Below are positions 1,989 to 7,542 of a stretch of 21,108 nt of DNA, piece after piece. The notes beneath the pieces are model-generated. The model was not told the origin of the DNA. It did no database searches and was given only the letters and a program-made list of their open reading frames with translations. The DNA lies in IMG/VR virus record IMGVR_UViG_3300038701_002264, positions 1-21,108 of that record. One strand, 5' to 3'. A program made the translations under genes and the position numbers. Source of the stretch: a virus. The first letter of the stretch is position 1. Every line of letters starts with the position of its first letter.

Positions 1989-2015
1989 ATTGTATCGCGT
2001 TGGCGCGGGTTTTGC
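1989..2015 (-). promoter_or_regulatory. Possible -10-like element for the portal/head operon
   Basis: On the minus strand a TACAAT hexamer (1989-1994) lies just upstream of the terminator; the best -35 at 17-base spacing is weak (TAGCAA). A start near 1982 would omit the 5' arm of the terminator and so escape it. The surrounding 11-mer GCGATACAATC recurs on the plus strand at 11454-11464. This is a tentative call. Confidence 0.25.
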
Positions 2016-2245
2016 TAGTTGGCTTGCTTCACCGGCACGCCCTCTGCGTCCCACTTTCGCAGAATCTCAGCAATGCAAATGTCGTCGCTCTTGTCTTGCA
2101 GTGATTCCAAAAGCTTGATTGCTGACCGGATACTCTCTTCTATCATCCTCAGGGTTTCCTCTGCTCCGCCAAAGCCACTTAGTTCTTTAATGCCATCATA
2201 TGAGGCCCCTAGATTTTTTATTGCACTCTCGATTTCAGTCTTCAT
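2015..2245 (-). CDS. Small hypothetical protein, acidic, helical
   Basis: This 76-residue protein is the last gene of the accessory operon and I do not recognise it. It starts MKTEIESAIKNLG and is rich in Glu, Asp, Ser, Ile and Leu with regular hydrophobic spacing (for example IRSAIKLLESL), suggesting a small helical, possibly dimeric protein. No signal peptide, membrane segment or metal motif is visible. Its translation start is well supported by a GGGAG..GAG purine stretch just before ATG 2245. That leader is nearly identical to the one of the neighbouring 2264-2458 gene (GGGAGYGAGATATGAA), suggesting shared ancestry of the initiation region though the proteins differ. The terminator at 1955-1987 follows. 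Confidence 0.6.
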   Translation of the reverse strand: MKTEIESAIKNLGASYDGIKELSGFGGAEETLRMIEESIRSAIKLLESLQDKSDDICIAEILRKWDAEGVPVKQAN

Positions 2246-2263
2246 ATCTCGCTCCCTTCATCT

Positions 2264-2458
2264 TCAAATAAAGTGATCCAGCACAGAATCCCTAAATCTA
2301 TCGTGAGCTTCTATTCTATCAACAAGCTCGATATCGGCACCGCCTTGAGATCGTCTTTCAATCCCTTCAACTTCGCTGAGATATATATTTACTGATCTAA
2401 TTAGGCTGGAGACAACCTCCAGATCTTGCAGTTTCAGCTCTACCTCTAATTTTTTCAT
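2264..2458 (-). CDS. Small hypothetical protein, helical
   Basis: This 64-residue protein begins MKKLEVELKLQDLEVV and I do not recognise its family. The alternation of charged and hydrophobic residues (LKLQDLEVVSSLIRSVNIYL) suggests one long amphipathic helix followed by a charged segment and a DHFI end. It lies 18 bases upstream of the next gene and is preceded by a GGGAGTGAG SD region and a tetraloop hairpin at 2475-2490. Short genes of this kind are common in phage accessory regions, where some act on host proteins, but nothing in the sequence says what this one does. Confidence 0.55.
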   Translation of the reverse strand: MKKLEVELKLQDLEVVSSLIRSVNIYLSEVEGIERRSQGGADIELVDRIEAHDRFRDSVLDHFI

Positions 2459-2474
2459 ATCTCACTCCCAGTAC

Positions 2475-2490
2475 GCGGTGTATTCACCGC
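2475..2490 (-). other. Intercistronic tetraloop hairpin
   Basis: A perfect 6-bp stem (GCGGTG/CACCGC) with a 4-base loop directly follows the stop of the metallophosphoesterase gene, and the SD of the 2264-2458 gene comes right after it. There is no T-run, so it is more likely an mRNA stability, processing or translation element than a terminator. Similar hairpins occur at 5209-5226, 5488-5503 and 9569-9582. Confidence 0.55.
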
Positions 2491-2491
2491 A

Positions 2492-3652
2492 TTAACGAAT
2501 CATTCCGATATTAACAGTATGACGCTCTACTTCGCCATACTCTGGATGCAAAACAATTGCTTTGCTGTCTTGTTTGGCACGATAGCCATTCCACGCTGCG
2601 TATGCGTCCTTTGCCGCCATGGTGCGGAAGGACTCGGCAGTGCAACCAGGGTATTCTACACGGCGGTCATGGTGTATGTGCCCAGTAAGCGCCCATCTAT
2701 GAGCCGTATTACCCCACATTTGCGGCTCATCGCATGCCATCACGCTCGGCATGTCTTTCATCTTTATAGTGTGTCCGTGATGAATGCCAAGCATGTTCTG
2801 CCCAAACTGGTGGTAGTGGACTGGCGTCGGGCTGTCCTCGATCTCTACGCGCGGCTCGTTTTCATAAATGTTGGCCAGGGCCACATTCAGGAACAACGCG
2901 CTCGTATCGTCGTGGTTGCCGGTTGCGTTGATGACTTTGACTTCACCATGGTGCGCCAAAGCCTGCGTTATCATCCGTCGCATGATTCGTACGCCAGTCT
3001 TTATCATCTTGGCGTAACGGCTGTCAACGTCCAGAGCATGACCTGATCGGGTAGTGACGCCCTCCATGTTGTCGTAGTGGAAGTAATCGCCCAAGTTTAC
3101 GATAAGCGCCCGATTGCAGCTTGGTGCGGCCTCGATTAGTCGGGCAAAACAGTCCGCGTAGGCCGCCTCGGCAATATCTAAATCCCAATCTTCTCCCGTC
3201 TCCTCGCCCCAAGAAAGCATCCCGATGTGCGGATCGCCCAGCGGGTATACCGCCAGCATGTCGGTTAGCTGCACTGCTTTGCTCTTAGAAGCCTTGACCG
3301 GCTTAACATCCTGGCACAGCACGTCGATTGCGTCGCGCATGAGTTCGTACTGGCGCTCACGATCAATGCTTGTCTTCACCCACTGTAGAGACGGCTTGCC
3401 GTCTTTGTACAGAGTGCTTGTGCCTTTAACGGCGTACCCGTCCGGTACGGCATGCTGCATGTCGTGCTCCGGCGACAGACCGCGCTTTGCCACGGCCGCG
3501 TTCAGCGCCTTGATTGATCGGGATAAGCTGGAATGGTTCTTCCCTAATGCTTCAGCGGCTTTGCGCATGCTGCCGTGTTCTTCTATTGCATTTATGTACG
3601 AAGTCTGAGCTGTAGTTGCTAGCTCTTTGTGCAAATCTGTAAAGTTATTCAT
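2492..3652 (-). CDS. HTH-metallophosphoesterase fusion protein
   Basis: This 386-residue protein combines an N-terminal helix-turn-helix (about residues 15-52: AIEEHGSMRKAAEALGKNHS, then SLSRSIKAL) with a calcineurin-like metallophosphoesterase domain (about 130-340). The phosphoesterase motifs are complete: GDPHIG (D140, H142), NLGDYFH (D189), GNHDD (N246, H247), HHGH (291-294) and GHIHHD (H325, H327). They would coordinate two metal ions to hydrolyse phosphodiesters in nucleic acid, nucleotides or a second messenger; the substrate cannot be read from sequence. Proteins of this build occur in phage genomes, and the HTH suggests DNA targeting. The start has a strong GGGGGAG SD and an ATGA overlap with the upstream 60-residue gene. 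Domain calls are firm; the biological role is inferred only. Confidence 0.85.
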   Translation of the reverse strand: MNNFTDLHKELATTAQTSYINAIEEHGSMRKAAEALGKNHSSLSRSIKALNAAVAKRGLSPEHDMQHAVPDGYAVKGTSTLYKDGKPSLQWVKTSIDRERQYELMRDAIDVLCQDVKPVKASKSKAVQLTDMLAVYPLGDPHIGMLSWGEETGEDWDLDIAEAAYADCFARLIEAAPSCNRALIVNLGDYFHYDNMEGVTTRSGHALDVDSRYAKMIKTGVRIMRRMITQALAHHGEVKVINATGNHDDTSALFLNVALANIYENEPRVEIEDSPTPVHYHQFGQNMLGIHHGHTIKMKDMPSVMACDEPQMWGNTAHRWALTGHIHHDRRVEYPGCTAESFRTMAAKDAYAAWNGYRAKQDSKAIVLHPEYGEVERHTVNIGMIR

Positions 3653-3831
3653 AACTCCCCCTTGGTCTTCTCATTATGCGTCTCCTTCGCCGATATGTTC
3701 TCAACAGTTCGCCAGTGGCATCCGTGGCGCTTAGCGATTGCCTTGGCTGTGTATTCTTTGAGCTGCTTTTGCAGCACTGTACGCTTCGCCAGGTCGGCTT
3801 TAATTCGTGCGACTGATTCTTTAGTTAGCAT
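3649..3831 (-). CDS. Small HTH-like protein upstream of the phosphoesterase
   Basis: This 60-residue, Lys-rich protein begins MLTKESVARIKADLAKRT. Its second half, KAIAKRHGCHWRTVENISAK, has the pattern of a resolvase or MarR-like helix-turn-helix (AIAKRHGCHWRTVENI). It is followed by a short charged tail. The start is supported by a GGAGG SD six bases before ATG 3831; it overlaps the Rmf-like gene by 11 bases and the phosphoesterase gene by ATGA. Proteins like this in phages are often annotated as hypothetical DNA-binding proteins. Translational coupling to an HTH-phosphoesterase suggests the two act together, but this is inference. Confidence 0.65.
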   Translation of the reverse strand: MLTKESVARIKADLAKRTVLQKQLKEYTAKAIAKRHGCHWRTVENISAKETHNEKTKGEL

Positions 3832-4141
3832 CTACAACCTCCAAAATGCTTGCTTTTGCGTAGTCTGTTGACTTGGCTGGTATGACTGCAAGGTGATCGC
3901 GCATATCCACAATGACATGCGTTTGCTTAGTCTCGCCTACCAAGAATTCAGCTTCTGCACGCGCATAGTCAATGCAAGTAAATGGCGTGCTTTCCATATC
4001 CACCTCATTCCAGCCCGCCAGCCATGCGCATCGGCGGCCCGTGTCGTTAATGGGATACGGGCAAGCGCTTTTGCTCAAACCGAGGCGGCGGGCATTTCTG
4101 CCCTCGCCGATCAGGCGATTTAGTTTCCGCTCGCTGATCAT
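3821..4141 (-). CDS. Rmf/CrpP-like domain protein with C-terminal extension
   Basis: This 106-residue protein starts at ATG 4141, chosen because it forms an ATGA overlap with the DUF3310 gene; an upstream extension to 4222 would lie wholly inside that gene. Residues 12-48 resemble ribosome modulation factor: a Gly/Arg/Ala helix (GEGRNARRLG), then CPY at 27-29, an Arg pair and WLAGW at 40-44, matching the G..A...G....CPY.....R..WL.GW signature of Rmf and the phage- or plasmid-borne CrpP group. Rmf binds 70S ribosomes and drives 100S dimer formation; some CrpP proteins were linked to ciprofloxacin resistance. Residues 55-106 are an extra domain (YARAEAEFLVGE, HVIVDMRDHLAVIPA) absent from Rmf. 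The ribosome target is inferred from the motif; the extension is unidentified. Confidence 0.75.
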   Translation of the reverse strand: MISERKLNRLIGEGRNARRLGLSKSACPYPINDTGRRCAWLAGWNEVDMESTPFTCIDYARAEAEFLVGETKQTHVIVDMRDHLAVIPAKSTDYAKASILEVVDAN

Positions 4142-4881
4142 TCGACTGACTCCAGCAAGCGCTTTAGGTACCACTCCGCTTTTTCTAGCGACTGCTTGCC
4201 TCCCTTGTGCCGGAAACGCCAAAGGTATTTCTGCACATTGCCTCGCAAGTACCCCTCGAATTCTTCTTTGCTCATGCTCGCTCTAATTGCGTCGATGCAC
4301 TCAATCTCGCCGCTGGCGTAGTGAGCTGGGCTGTTGACTTCGTCGTCGGGTAAATCGACTAACAAAAAATCACCAGATTCTACTCCATCCTTGATGAACT
4401 CCTCTTTCTCTGACTCGGATTTAAAGAAAGGCTGTTTCACTTTCTTTTCCAGCATCCCCGCAAAATGCAGCGCGCGGCGAGCTGCTGTGTATTGATCCTG
4501 GGGTACAAACAGATCAACACTGTCTTTTAAGCGCACAAGCTTGACGCCGTTCAATGTAATCTCAAAAGGATGATTCATCATTGCTGTTTCGCGCACGTCT
4601 TCCGTCAACTCACTAACAAACGGCGCACGCTCGCGGAGTTGGTCGAGGGTTAAGCATTCGATGCCTTGATCTGCGTAATAGCTCACGCTTTGAGTGTGAG
4701 TTTTCCCACCCCTTACAGCCCAACATGAGTATTCATCCCACTGGAAATCGTACCCCAAATAGCCTCCAATCCCCGGCAGGGCCTCGAACAGCTCAGCCCC
4801 ATGCGCTACTGCTCGCTCAATAATCTCTCTCGCTTCTTCTTCCGATTTTGGAACGCAGTAAAAATCTTCAATTGGTTTCAT
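4138..4881 (-). CDS. DUF3310 domain protein with long N-terminal region
   Basis: This 247-residue protein has a C-terminal DUF3310 domain (about 180-246), recognised from VNSPAHYASGEIECIDAI, then LRGNVQKYLWRFRHKGGKQS and EKAEWYLKRL. In phages the domain is usually annotated as unknown or as a nucleotide kinase by comparison with T7 gp1.7; no P-loop is visible here, so any kinase role would use a non-canonical site. The first ~170 residues are unusual for this family: an acidic helical start (SEEEAREIIERAVAHGAELF) and an aromatic stretch (YLGYDFQWDEYSCWAVRGG). They match nothing I know. Both gene ends are coupled by ATGA. A role in nucleotide metabolism is plausible but unproven. Confidence 0.75.
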   Translation of the reverse strand: MKPIEDFYCVPKSEEEAREIIERAVAHGAELFEALPGIGGYLGYDFQWDEYSCWAVRGGKTHTQSVSYYADQGIECLTLDQLRERAPFVSELTEDVRETAMMNHPFEITLNGVKLVRLKDSVDLFVPQDQYTAARRALHFAGMLEKKVKQPFFKSESEKEEFIKDGVESGDFLLVDLPDDEVNSPAHYASGEIECIDAIRASMSKEEFEGYLRGNVQKYLWRFRHKGGKQSLEKAEWYLKRLLESVE

Positions 4882-5150
4882 TGCTTGAACTCCTCGTTAA
4901 AAAACTTATCGGTTATCGCCTGACACCGGCGCGCATACTTACTGCGCATCGCCTGCAATTGCTTAGGCTCAACTTCACGATATACGCGATACCGTGTGCC
5001 GTCAACCGTAATTTCTACGCCTGTTGCTGCTGCGTTGTGGATTTTTGTTTCCCATGTATCTAAAGCATCCTGTTGCCCATGTTTCATGCCGTGTATGAAC
5101 ATGGACACAGGCAATGATAAAATACATAATAACAGTACTATGTTAAGCAT
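4878..5150 (-). CDS. Membrane-anchored small protein
   Basis: The ATG at 5150 is chosen because GGAGGG lies seven bases upstream; a TTG at 5171 would give seven more residues but swallow this SD. The 90-residue product opens with a single hydrophobic segment (MLNIVLLLCILSLPVSMFIH), suitable as an inner-membrane anchor. Next comes a short HGMKHGQQDALDTWETKIHN segment and a beta-type stretch (GVEITVDGTRYRVYREV), ending in a basic helical tail. With a non-cleaved anchor the remainder would be cytoplasmic or periplasmic depending on orientation. The end is joined by ATGA to the DUF3310 gene. I do not recognise the family; phage-encoded inner-membrane proteins of this size sometimes alter host entry or cell envelope. 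Confidence 0.65.
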   Translation of the reverse strand: MLNIVLLLCILSLPVSMFIHGMKHGQQDALDTWETKIHNAAATGVEITVDGTRYRVYREVEPKQLQAMRSKYARRCQAITDKFFNEEFKQ

Positions 5151-5244
5151 AAATAGCCCTCCAACACCCAATAAACGTCCCCGCGCACACTACGCGGCCC
5201 CGATATGTGGCGACCAACCGGTCGCCGTTGTGTTTAATCTTCAT
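5143..5244 (-). CDS. 33-residue small protein
   Basis: Minus-strand ATG 5244 opens a 33-codon frame ending in TAA at 5143, overlapping the next gene's start by eight bases. It fills an otherwise empty gap between two well-supported genes. A GAAGGG SD-like stretch lies three to eight bases upstream. The product starts MKIKHNGDRLVATYRGRVV and continues CAGTFIGCWRAIYA, with alternating hydrophobic and charged residues suggesting a beta-hairpin followed by a short helix, a pattern I associate with short conserved phage proteins. The frame also holds a perfect 7-bp stem at 5209-5226, so the DNA may work as RNA structure as well. Coding status is probable, not certain. Confidence 0.5.
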   Translation of the reverse strand: MKIKHNGDRLVATYRGRVVCAGTFIGCWRAIYA

Positions 5245-5253
5245 ACCACCCTT

Positions 5254-5475
5254 CTAATACCCACCACGGGTTTCGTTTAGATACTCTACCAGTTTTGCAT
5301 AGGCCAATGCACATACTAGCGCCCTGTCGCACCCATCCAAGCTAACAACATCCAAGTACTCTCCAGCATTTGAATGCTCCGAAATCCGAACCGTGTAGTC
5401 TGTCAGCCCGTGATAGCAGAACTCAATATTCAGCCTCGGGGTATTCTCCACTAAATCAAACAGCTTACCTTCCAT
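5254..5475 (-). CDS. Small hypothetical protein
   Basis: ATG 5475 is preceded at good spacing by AGGAGG (5480-5486); a GTG six codons upstream would place the SD inside the gene, so the shorter form is preferred. The 73-residue product begins MEGKLFDLVENTPRLNIEF and continues CYHGLTDYTVRISEHSNAGE, followed by YLDVVSLDGCDRALVCAL and AYAKLVEYLNETRGGY. This looks like a small alpha/beta fold with a C-terminal helix. I do not recognise it. It sits directly downstream of the GC-rich hairpin at 5488-5503. Confidence 0.6.
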   Translation of the reverse strand: MEGKLFDLVENTPRLNIEFCYHGLTDYTVRISEHSNAGEYLDVVSLDGCDRALVCALAYAKLVEYLNETRGGY

Positions 5476-5483
5476 AAATCCTC

Positions 5484-5519
5484 CTAAGGCCACCGCAGTG
5501 GCCGGTTGTTAATCTTCAT
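5484..5519 (-). CDS. Possible 11-residue leader peptide with hairpin
   Basis: An ATG at 5519, overlapping the TGA of the preceding gene (ATGA), opens MKINNRPLRWP and then stops in TAG just before the SD of the 5254-5475 gene. The frame contains a perfect 6-bp stem with a 4-base loop (GGCCAC/GTGGCC, 5488-5503). Ribosomes translating it could melt the hairpin and help initiation downstream. Its start matches the ATGAAGATTAA of the 33-residue gene at 5244, so it might instead be a remnant of such a gene. Low confidence. Confidence 0.25.
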   Translation of the reverse strand: MKINNRPLRWP

Positions 5520-5962
5520 ATCAGACCTTTTGATTTAAGGTACTTCCTCCGCCACTCTTGCGCGGCCTCCATTATTGAGTCTCCGGAAACTGATCCCAAG
5601 ATTAAAATTTCGTGACTTGTGATGCAGTTATTATATGAGTAAACAATCTCCTTATCACTTGTAATCGATGCGGGCTTTTCTTGCGCTGGCTTAGGAGCAC
5701 TAACAAAGACAAGCCATATGTTTTCTCCATCCTTTACCCCCATCCTCTCTCGCAACTTCTTGTTTTCTATGGCGCAGGCAAGCTCGGATGGGTATCCACC
5801 CTCAATCTCTGATATGTCCTCCGGATTAAGATCCATTTTATCTGCAAGCCATTCGATATTGTCCTCCAGCTGCTCAATGTCATCCCACTGAAGCGCGAAA
5901 TTTGGCCCGAGAAGCCAGTCTAGATTCACGATCCTGTCAACTCTTACATTTGGGTCTATCAT
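5516..5962 (-). CDS. Hypothetical acidic protein
   Basis: The start at ATG 5962 is chosen because GAGGG lies seven bases upstream (5970-5974). Longer starts at 5968, 5989 and 6010 lack suitable spacing, and the last two overlap the preceding gene. The 148-residue product begins MIDPNVRVDRIVNLDWLLG. It has an acidic helical region (DDIEQLEDNIEWLADKMDLN), a short LRERMGVKDGENIWLVFVSA strand-like part, a Pro/Ala linker (PKPAQEKPAS) and a C-terminal domain ending EAAQEWRRKYLKSKGLI. I do not recognise the family. The two-part layout, with a linker near residue 95, suggests two domains; no catalytic motif is visible. Confidence 0.6.
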   Translation of the reverse strand: MIDPNVRVDRIVNLDWLLGPNFALQWDDIEQLEDNIEWLADKMDLNPEDISEIEGGYPSELACAIENKKLRERMGVKDGENIWLVFVSAPKPAQEKPASITSDKEIVYSYNNCITSHEILILGSVSGDSIMEAAQEWRRKYLKSKGLI

Positions 5963-5978
5963 TGTCATACCCTCTTTT

Positions 5979-6356
5979 TTAGTCTTCATCCAACAAACAC
6001 CCGCGGTCAACGCCGCGAGCGAGCCAGCTGATCACCTGTTGATAATGATGCTTAAGGCGATGACTAATCTCTTGAACGTCGCCGCGTCCGTTCTCGATTG
6101 CCATGATCAGCTCCCCCGCCGCTATCCGCTCCTGCTTCATGTGATCATGCAAAATAGCCCACTCGCTTTCGTCGTGAGTGTCGAAAAACGCTGACATTAC
6201 CTCGGCGATGTCGCCGTCGTCGTCGTATGCCAAGATTGCGTATTCTTCGCAAGCGTCTGCGTGCGCCTGCTCTGAGCGCTCTTGCTCGTCGTAACGCTCC
6301 TGCGCTTCCTGCCCATCCCTGGCGGCTGCTAACTCGTGTTGTTCGTATGCGCTCAT
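5979..6356 (-). CDS. Hypothetical Glu/Ala-rich helical protein
   Basis: ATG 6356 has an AGGAGG SD and an ATGA overlap with the upstream gene; the longer reading from 6401 would overlap that gene by 49 bases. The 125-residue product begins MSAYEQHELAAARDGQEAQE and is dominated by Glu, Gln, Ala and Asp, likely a helical bundle or coiled coil (ERYDEQERSEQAHADACEEY). It then runs through an acidic DDDGDIAEV and ends LARGVDRGCLLDED. Very acidic phage proteins are sometimes DNA mimics or inhibitors of host enzymes, but nothing here proves it. No known family is recognised. Confidence 0.6.
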   Translation of the reverse strand: MSAYEQHELAAARDGQEAQERYDEQERSEQAHADACEEYAILAYDDDGDIAEVMSAFFDTHDESEWAILHDHMKQERIAAGELIMAIENGRGDVQEISHRLKHHYQQVISWLARGVDRGCLLDED

Positions 6357-6604
6357 TGCGAATCCTCCTGCACCAATCCGATAATGTCCTGCCACACCCA
6401 ATCCGCTTCTCGGTATGACATGTGTTCTAGCATCTTTTCCGCAATCTCTTCAGTAATTTCTACCGGCACAACCACGCACTCCTCAGGGATGGCGTAAAGG
6501 TCACGGGTTTCGTATCCGTTGCGCTCCATATGCTCGCGCGAGTAGTCGCTTCCGATCTTCCATTCCCCGCTTGCAGACTTATATTGCCACGCTACTGGTT
6601 CCAT
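6353..6604 (-). CDS. Conserved-type small phage protein (MEPVAW family)
   Basis: This 83-residue protein begins MEPVAWQYKSASGEWKIGS and continues to TRDLYAIPEE. The MEPVAW...LYAIPE pattern is a recurring N-terminal module in small phage proteins of enterobacterial and related phages, sometimes linked to larger Ea22/Ead-type proteins. The second half (VEITEEIAEKMLEHMSYREA) is helical and acidic. The start has AAGGAGAG upstream. It overlaps its two neighbours, by 13 bases and by ATGA, so the genes are tightly coupled. Its function is unknown; the motif recognition is from memory and could be checked by profile search. Confidence 0.6.
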   Translation of the reverse strand: MEPVAWQYKSASGEWKIGSDYSREHMERNGYETRDLYAIPEECVVVPVEITEEIAEKMLEHMSYREADWVWQDIIGLVQEDSQ

Positions 6605-6834
6605 AGCCCACTCTCCTTTTCTGATTTCAGCCTCTCTATTTCATCTGACAGCGCTCGAAAGCGTATCGAATCGAGCTTCATTGATTCGTGAAGCTCTTCC
6701 AAGAATTCCTCAAGTTTTCTGGTGCTAATTGTTTTTTGTCTATGACAGACGAACAGTAGTCTTTCAAGGTCAGAACCTTTCGCCAATTCGCTAGCTCTCA
6801 AAATCGTGTTTTTTCGGTTGTAGAATCTGTACAT
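6592..6834 (-). CDS. Small basic hypothetical protein
   Basis: This 80-residue protein begins MYRFYNRKNTILRASELAK and has a Lys/Arg-rich N-terminal half followed by an acidic heptad-like helix (ISTRKLEEFLEELHESMKLD, then LSDEIERLKSEKES), suggesting a small coiled coil. A GGGAGAG SD precedes ATG 6834. It overlaps the upstream gene's 3' end by 37 bases in another frame, a large but not unusual overlap for phage. I do not recognise the family. Confidence 0.5.
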   Translation of the reverse strand: MYRFYNRKNTILRASELAKGSDLERLLFVCHRQKTISTRKLEEFLEELHESMKLDSIRFRALSDEIERLKSEKESGLWNQ

Positions 6835-7241
6835 TTTTCACTCTCCCACTTAACAAATAATTCCCGCAGATCTTCTGAAATTTCTTTTAGTGCTGCTGAC
6901 CGTGCTGCTGTCAACTCTCTCTGTGCAATCTCGCCGCAAATAAACTTGCGCTTAGCCTCGATTGCTAGGCGCGGGCGCTTGTCGCCTGGGAACTTACTAT
7001 CAAATCGATGCAGGCATTTTTCAGCCCAGTCACAGCCAAGCAGGCCAATATCGTCCTGCTGCGATTTGCTTAGCTTGCCCCAAGCTTCCGCCAGATACCA
7101 CCAAACATCATCCCGCCCACTTCTATCGAATGCCTCTGACAACTTCACTTCTTTGTCGCCGTGAGCCAAATAAAAATCCGCAAAGCCGTCGCGGCAAGCC
7201 TCAAGCTCAATCAGTTCGTGAATATCCAATGTTGTTTTCAT
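6798..7241 (-). CDS. Putative Imm5-like / conserved phage protein
   Basis: This 147-residue protein begins MKTTLDIHELIELEACRDGF. It carries ACRDGFADFYLAHGDKEV and WWYLAEAWGKLSKSQQDDIG, followed by a segment with Asp/Arg-Pro-Arg and an Ile-Glu-Ala helix (FPGDKRPRLAIEAKRKFI). That last pattern resembles the PddpRPr.AIEaar element of a phage and immunity-protein group often annotated putative immunity protein (Imm5-like). I know it only as a pattern. The remainder is helical and charged. It starts at ATG 7241 with GGAGAG upstream, coupled by ATGA to the small gene at 7238-7390. The role is uncertain; the resemblance does not prove an immunity function. Confidence 0.55.
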   Translation of the reverse strand: MKTTLDIHELIELEACRDGFADFYLAHGDKEVKLSEAFDRSGRDDVWWYLAEAWGKLSKSQQDDIGLLGCDWAEKCLHRFDSKFPGDKRPRLAIEAKRKFICGEIAQRELTAARSAALKEISEDLRELFVKWESEKCTDSTTEKTRF

Positions 7242-7390
7242 TGCTCGCTCTCCGTCCTCAGCTTGGCTGCATACTTGATTAACTTCTCTCGCTTGTCGGC
7301 TGGCACCCAGATAATTGCCTGAGTGTAGCCTTTTGCCTGCATATCTGCGCGCAGCTTGTCTGCGCCATTGGTTGTATTGGCTTCGCTCAT
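7238..7390 (-). CDS. 50-residue protein, MazE/RHH-like pattern, first gene of the accessory operon
   Basis: ATG 7390 opens a 50-codon frame that ends in an ATGA overlap with the next gene. Product: MSEANTTNGADKLRADMQAK, then GYTQAIIWVPADKREKLIKY, then AAKLRTESEQ. The core LRADMQAKGYTQAIIWVPAD resembles the LRA.GlrpvqiWVPD signature of DUF3018/MazE-type antitoxins and related ribbon-helix-helix proteins: a beta strand followed by two helices. An ACGGAG SD lies at fitting distance. It is the first gene after the promoter with an overlapping inverted repeat (7414-7431), so it could be the repressor of its own operon; that is inference. No toxin partner is evident next door. Confidence 0.65.
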   Translation of the reverse strand: MSEANTTNGADKLRADMQAKGYTQAIIWVPADKREKLIKYAAKLRTESEQ

Positions 7391-7413
7391 GCGCGCTCCG
7401 TTTGATTATCTTA

Positions 7414-7448
7414 TGTGCTCAAGATAGCACAATGATTGCGGTCGTCAA
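7414..7448 (-). promoter_or_regulatory. Sigma70 promoter with overlapping operator-like dyad
   Basis: On the minus strand TTGACG (7443-7448), a 16-base spacer and TATCTT (7421-7426) make a good sigma70 promoter. A 6-bp inverted repeat TGTGCT/AGCACA (7414-7419 and 7426-7431, spacer 6) overlaps the -10 and the likely start site, the usual place of a repressor site. It would start the accessory operon at gene 7238-7390. Confidence 0.75.
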
Positions 7449-7462
7449 CACATTTTGCAGAT

Positions 7463-7487
7463 AAAAAAAACCCCGCACGAAGCGGGG
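7463..7487 (-). terminator. Rho-independent terminator after terL
   Basis: On the minus strand a 6-bp GC stem (CCCCGC/GCGGGG, 7471-7476 and 7482-7487) with a 5-base loop is followed by eight T. It closes the packaging operon just before the accessory-operon promoter. Confidence 0.9.
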
Positions 7488-7542
7488 CAAGGAGGGAGGA
7501 GCAAGCAATGATCAATGGAGAGGTTGCAGACTAACCCATGCA

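Follow-up and report, generated by a model that had tools for sequence, protein, structure and literature searches.

Genomic context of the Rmf-like gene

The 21-kb viral fragment analysed here (21,108 nucleotides), which we call the window, carries terminase, portal, primase-polymerase, helicase, SSB and other genes. On its minus strand, at 3821..4141, lies a gene with an ATG start and a TAA stop that encodes a 106-residue protein with a predicted Rmf/CrpP fold, residues 27-44 of which read CPYPINDTGRRCAWLAGW. The start codon is preceded by GGAG and overlaps, as ATGA, the stop of an upstream DUF3310 gene (4138..4881, minus strand; C-terminal match to PF11753 at E 3.3e-19, and phrog_236, a 'nucleotide kinase' in PHROGs). 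At its other end the gene overlaps by 11 nt a downstream gene for a 60-residue HTH-like protein (3649..3831, minus strand; weak matches to HTH_23 and HTH_Tnp_ISL3, below cut-off), whose GGAGG and ATG fall within the final codons of the Rmf-like gene, and a metallophosphoesterase or 'DNA repair exonuclease' gene follows in the same operon direction (2492..3652, minus strand; phrog_704, E 9e-122). The Rmf-like gene is part of a small-gene cassette between the large terminase gene, after which a terminator-like hairpin is found (7470..7488, minus strand; from a pattern scan only), and the portal gene, both genes being assigned by Pfam. This cassette occupies window positions 2000-7470, and the hairpin ahead of it, at 7488-7470, is a strong one; the terminase gene of Vibrio phage 1.013.O has the portal gene directly after it. 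A PADLOC search for defence families gave no match.

The terminase is 78% identical to that of a Vibrio cyclitrophicus phage and the exonuclease is nearest to those of Vibrio and Aeromonas phages, so that by these two proteins the nearest isolates infect Vibrio, Pseudoalteromonas and Aeromonas, all gammaproteobacteria. In five isolate phages with a related terminase or exonuclease, no Rmf/CrpP-family gene was found, and the gene is therefore accessory.

A second IMG/VR contig, 3300038701_001700, encodes an Rmf-like protein of the same length that is 84% identical over all 106 residues, and shares with the window the gene order DUF3310, Rmf-like, HTH-like, exonuclease and portal. Both the GGAG and the ATGA overlap are retained there. 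Between the two contigs, dN/dS of the Rmf-like gene is 0.27 in the coding frame, falling to 0.13 in the part encoding the N-terminal domain, while the antisense frames give 0.50 to 1.2. Since the second contig keeps the start signals, the gene order and the protein, and since the constraint is confined to the sense frame, the reading frame is a real gene. The neighbouring DUF3310 gene differs between the contigs, encoding 78 residues in the other and about 170 more at the N-terminus in the window (4361-4871, minus strand), apparently because some 500 bp were inserted or deleted within it.

The most conserved 120 nt in this comparison run from 3917 to 3798 on the minus strand, with 98.3% identity against a mean of 86%, and encode the predicted hairpin and C-terminus of the Rmf-like protein together with the start of the HTH-like gene. 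Almost no synonymous change is seen in the block, where dS is about 0.05 compared with 0.53 in the N-terminal domain. Recent recombination or a role in translational coupling could account for it, two origins that a comparison of two sequences cannot separate. An RNA element was considered at 3797-3927 and rejected, as no stable fold was found in that interval (z +1.1) and an Rfam search of the window gave no match.

An N-terminal domain with a predicted Rmf fold

The first 50 residues (3992..4141, minus strand) are predicted to form a helix (residues 4-19), a loop containing the CPY motif and a second helix (34-51). An earlier note on this DNA had proposed an Rmf/CrpP-like domain here from the sequence pattern, a proposal that profiles, PDB sequences and the predicted structure all bear out. 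The Pfam family PF04957 (RMF) matches residues 5-48 at E 1.3e-7 (32.0 bits against a cut-off of 27.9) and the NCBIfam family NF041886 (Rmf_CrpP_fam) matches at E 9.1e-9 (34.8 bits against 28); as these E-values are already corrected for library size, the matches are not due to chance. PHROGs adds a match to phrog_10492 at E 1.3e-8. The more specific NCBIfam models all fall below their cut-offs: the true Rmf equivalog NF011162 scores 25.2 bits against 40, the phage Rmf-like equivalog NF041887 30.3 against 40, and the CrpP-related NF041856 22 against 35, covering residues 13-30 only. A PDB search with the single sequence finds Rmf chains at E of about 0.01, and one with the family alignment finds 2jrm (1.8e-7), 4v8g (3.2e-7) and 6h4n (4.1e-7), all of them Rmf chains, with no other chains below E 0.2. 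The CPY, R, AW and GW residues of the motif are invariant among eight aligned phage proteins.

Structure prediction leads to the same fold. In an AlphaFold2 model built from an eight-row alignment, residues 1-50 have a pLDDT of 85-93, and Foldseek ranks Rmf first and second for this domain (probabilities 1.00 and 0.80). By VIA-align, the best match is ribosome-bound Rmf in 9iot (Z 8.2, rmsd 2.8, 51 residues aligned), followed by ribosome-bound Rmf in 6h4n (Z 6.3) and by Rmf in 2jrm (Z 6.2), with the first non-Rmf structure at 2.6; the model may in part reflect the similarity in sequence to Rmf and is thus not fully independent evidence. Taken as a prediction, the Rmf fold of residues 1-50 is solid, and we regard membership of the Rmf/CrpP superfamily as close to certain.

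What sets the protein apart from Rmf of E. coli and Vibrio (PF04957), with which it shares the CPY...R..W..GW helix-loop-helix, the profile match above cut-off and a predicted fold like that of ribosome-bound Rmf, is a loop two residues longer, some 57 extra C-terminal residues and the missed Rmf equivalog. Eight residues from CPY to W, as in E. coli Rmf, and a length of about 55 residues are typical of Rmf without formally defining it, and compare with ten and 106 in the window protein. In function, true Rmf is marked by binding to the 30S near the 3' end of 16S rRNA and by the promotion of 100S dimers. The ten-residue loop is also found in several proteins from Pseudomonas phages and IMG/VR.

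A C-terminal extension found in two contigs

Residues 51-106 (3824..3991, minus strand) make up the extension, about 57 residues beyond the Rmf domain and 62 residues after the GW. In the full-length AlphaFold2 model they form a helix (55-71) and a beta-hairpin (75-88) at a pLDDT of about 47-68, and the segment modelled alone gives a similar picture at a mean pLDDT of 59. A structural search with this low-confidence model reached a best Z of 3.7 among many unrelated folds, matches that do not convince, and the model is too weak to assign a fold. The C-terminal half is also family-less by profile, no Pfam family matching even at E 10. Two further candidates were discarded, namely phrog_5407, which matched one of the two proteins at E 0.03-0.06, a chance-level score, and also came up in control genomes that are unrelated, with E values as high as 1, and a match in Edwardsiella phage pEt-SU, which is to an unrelated protein of 270 residues.

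Searches for relatives of the segment led back to the same two contigs. In tblastn of phages, E was 2 or more throughout. A scan of IMG/VR for VD..DHLAV gave 75 stretches, and among the frames recovered from them the Rmf domain was present only in the known relative; a scan of 28 records with a C-terminal profile likewise found the segment only in the two known contigs. Among everything searched, residues 51-106 occur only in the window and in 3300038701_001700, and the extension rests on these two sequences. The earlier note had spoken of a C-terminal domain of about 50 residues: a segment of about 55 residues is real, and at these pLDDT values it is at most a putative independent domain.

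Rmf-like genes in other phages

Many phage proteins in BFVD share the N-terminal part, some of them already named 'Ribosome modulation factor'. In a set of 99 distinct Rmf-like phage reading frames, collected by two spacing patterns plus profile relatives and, being pattern-selected, not giving population frequencies, 90 end within 20 residues past the motif, six end at 21-40 and three extend more than 40, these being the window protein, its relative and an unrelated extension (locus L164). The protein thus shares its domain with the phage Rmf/CrpP-fold proteins (NF041886/NF041887, phrog_10492, phrog_13106), which mostly end at most 20 residues past the motif, whereas its own chain continues for 62 after the GW. 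In a genome collection, a protein scan and a strict Rmf motif both turned up no relative, although patterns this strict are weak evidence of absence.

The genes occupy varied positions. Distant relatives of the N-terminal domain are flanked by helicase and primase genes in L103 and have a helicase nearby in L100, and in Streptomyces phage Cumberbatch the Rmf-like gene sits between those for the capsid maturation protease and the scaffold. Among 91 loci fetched with one Rmf pattern, 80 match the actinophage Rmf-fold protein, and a protease homologue is present in 79 of the 80; only the best tblastn piece was kept for each gene, so that the spacing of protease and Rmf-like genes is exact for 28 loci and approximate for the others. 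The arrangement with the gene between capsid maturation protease and scaffold is seen at 5317-5487 of L208 (MT451982 gp6) and in actinophage-type loci among L112-L202. As Rmf is described from gammaproteobacteria, a head-operon role in Streptomyces phages is unexplained.

Several other arrangements came to light. A protein annotated as Rmf/CrpP on plasmid p7 of Azospirillum argentinense (WP_137119194.1; L012, 1-927) has, by eye, about three Rmf-like repeats, and its gene adjoins a RuvC gene; another locus, L099, appears to carry two such repeats in tandem. Rmf-like matches unannotated in their records lie at 601-723 of L007 and of L009, in Pseudomonas phage Rollin and Pseudoalteromonas phage B8b. 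In two longer phage reading frames, of 224 (L089) and 215 (L097) residues, the motif stands at the C-terminal end, so that the domain may serve as a C-terminal module too. Our literature search on phage Rmf-like proteins or phage-encoded hibernation factors found nothing specific.

Proposed function and alternatives

The window protein is a phage accessory protein in which an N-terminal Rmf-fold helix-loop-helix is followed by a lineage-specific C-terminal extension. Because of its homology to Rmf, ribosome targeting, which the earlier note had suggested, is the most likely single mechanism, a reading drawn from homology that we nevertheless judge less likely than not. Rmf binds the back of the 30S subunit and fixes the 3' end of 16S rRNA, including the anti-SD (PMC6746590). 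By analogy, the Rmf-fold domain would dock on the host 30S, at the back of the subunit and close to the 16S rRNA 3' end, and, once docked, would dampen or redirect translation initiation; the helix and hairpin of the extension might add contacts or exclude host factors, and translation of the gene is probably coupled to that of its neighbours in the cassette between terminase and portal. The profile matches, the family-profile search of the PDB that returns Rmf alone at E below 0.01, the fold match, the invariant motif residues and the low dN/dS of the N-terminal domain argue for this mechanism, as do the hosts of the nearest isolates, which belong to the gammaproteobacteria, the class from which Rmf, including that of Vibrio cholerae, has been described. 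Against it stand the missed Rmf and phage Rmf-like equivalogs, the longer loop and the case of BatR, a C-terminally extended Rmf homologue. In Pseudomonas aeruginosa, BatR (PA3049) reportedly binds the kinase SrkA and takes no part in ribosome hibernation (PMC13411936). A more elaborate proposal, a two-part ribosome modulator whose Rmf-like domain sits at the anti-Shine-Dalgarno end of the 30S while a C-terminal hairpin module reshapes initiation, seems to us improbable; if true, coupled phage messages, for instance, might be favoured over host messages.

The example of BatR also opens the possibility, less than likely on present grounds, that the Rmf fold serves as a small protein-binding adapter that tunes a host or phage enzyme such as a kinase, a nuclease or a replication protein, with the extension giving specificity. 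The position of relatives' genes between helicase and primase or near a helicase fits such a role, but the sequence names no partner, and the likeness to BatR is limited, the extension of that chromosomally encoded protein being 15 residues long with a single predicted helix and that of the phage protein about 57 with a predicted hairpin. The head-gene loci point in another direction, to a virion or packaging stage (head assembly or a late-stage packaging accessory), and the location between terminase and portal, the Cumberbatch gene and the protease homologues at nearly all matching actinophage loci are consistent with this; however, the actinophage form is a different subtype that has no extension, the immediate neighbours here are DUF3310, HTH and exonuclease genes rather than head genes, and relatives of the L103 type lie in a replication module. 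We consider this possibility unlikely.

Two other explanations bear on parts of the protein or on its family name. The C-terminal part might be an out-grown tail instead of a functional domain, kept because the next gene has its ribosome-binding site and start within this DNA. The GGAGG and ATG in the last codons, the 120-nt block with its near absence of synonymous change and the low model confidence for residues 51-106 would all suit such a tail, but about 100 conserved nucleotides exceed what a start region alone explains, the block is silent on constraint if it is a recent recombination tract, and a regular helix and hairpin are predicted for the protein segment; on balance we consider a mere tail unlikely. 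That the protein is a fluoroquinolone-modifying enzyme of the CrpP type is scarcely credible. It shares the NCBIfam superfamily model with CrpP of plasmid pUM505, through the joint Rmf/CrpP family NF041886, but the CrpP-related model covers only a short segment well under its cut-off, and the enzyme activity claimed for CrpP itself, ATP-dependent modification of ciprofloxacin, is disputed.

The Rmf fold does not fix function, since BatR reportedly acts outside hibernation, the activity of CrpP is disputed and actinophage-type loci have an Rmf-fold gene among head genes; the related phage genes beside helicase and primase or head genes suggest other roles. Because the Rmf fold is common in phages, the window protein is a modest, extended variant of a known and common phage domain. 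Rmf-fold proteins are widespread in phages, some of which infect hosts, Streptomyces among them, beyond the gammaproteobacterial range from which Rmf has been described, and we found no known function for any of the phage proteins. With its large extension, the window protein is a tractable case in which to distinguish phage targeting of the 30S platform from reuse of the fold for something else.
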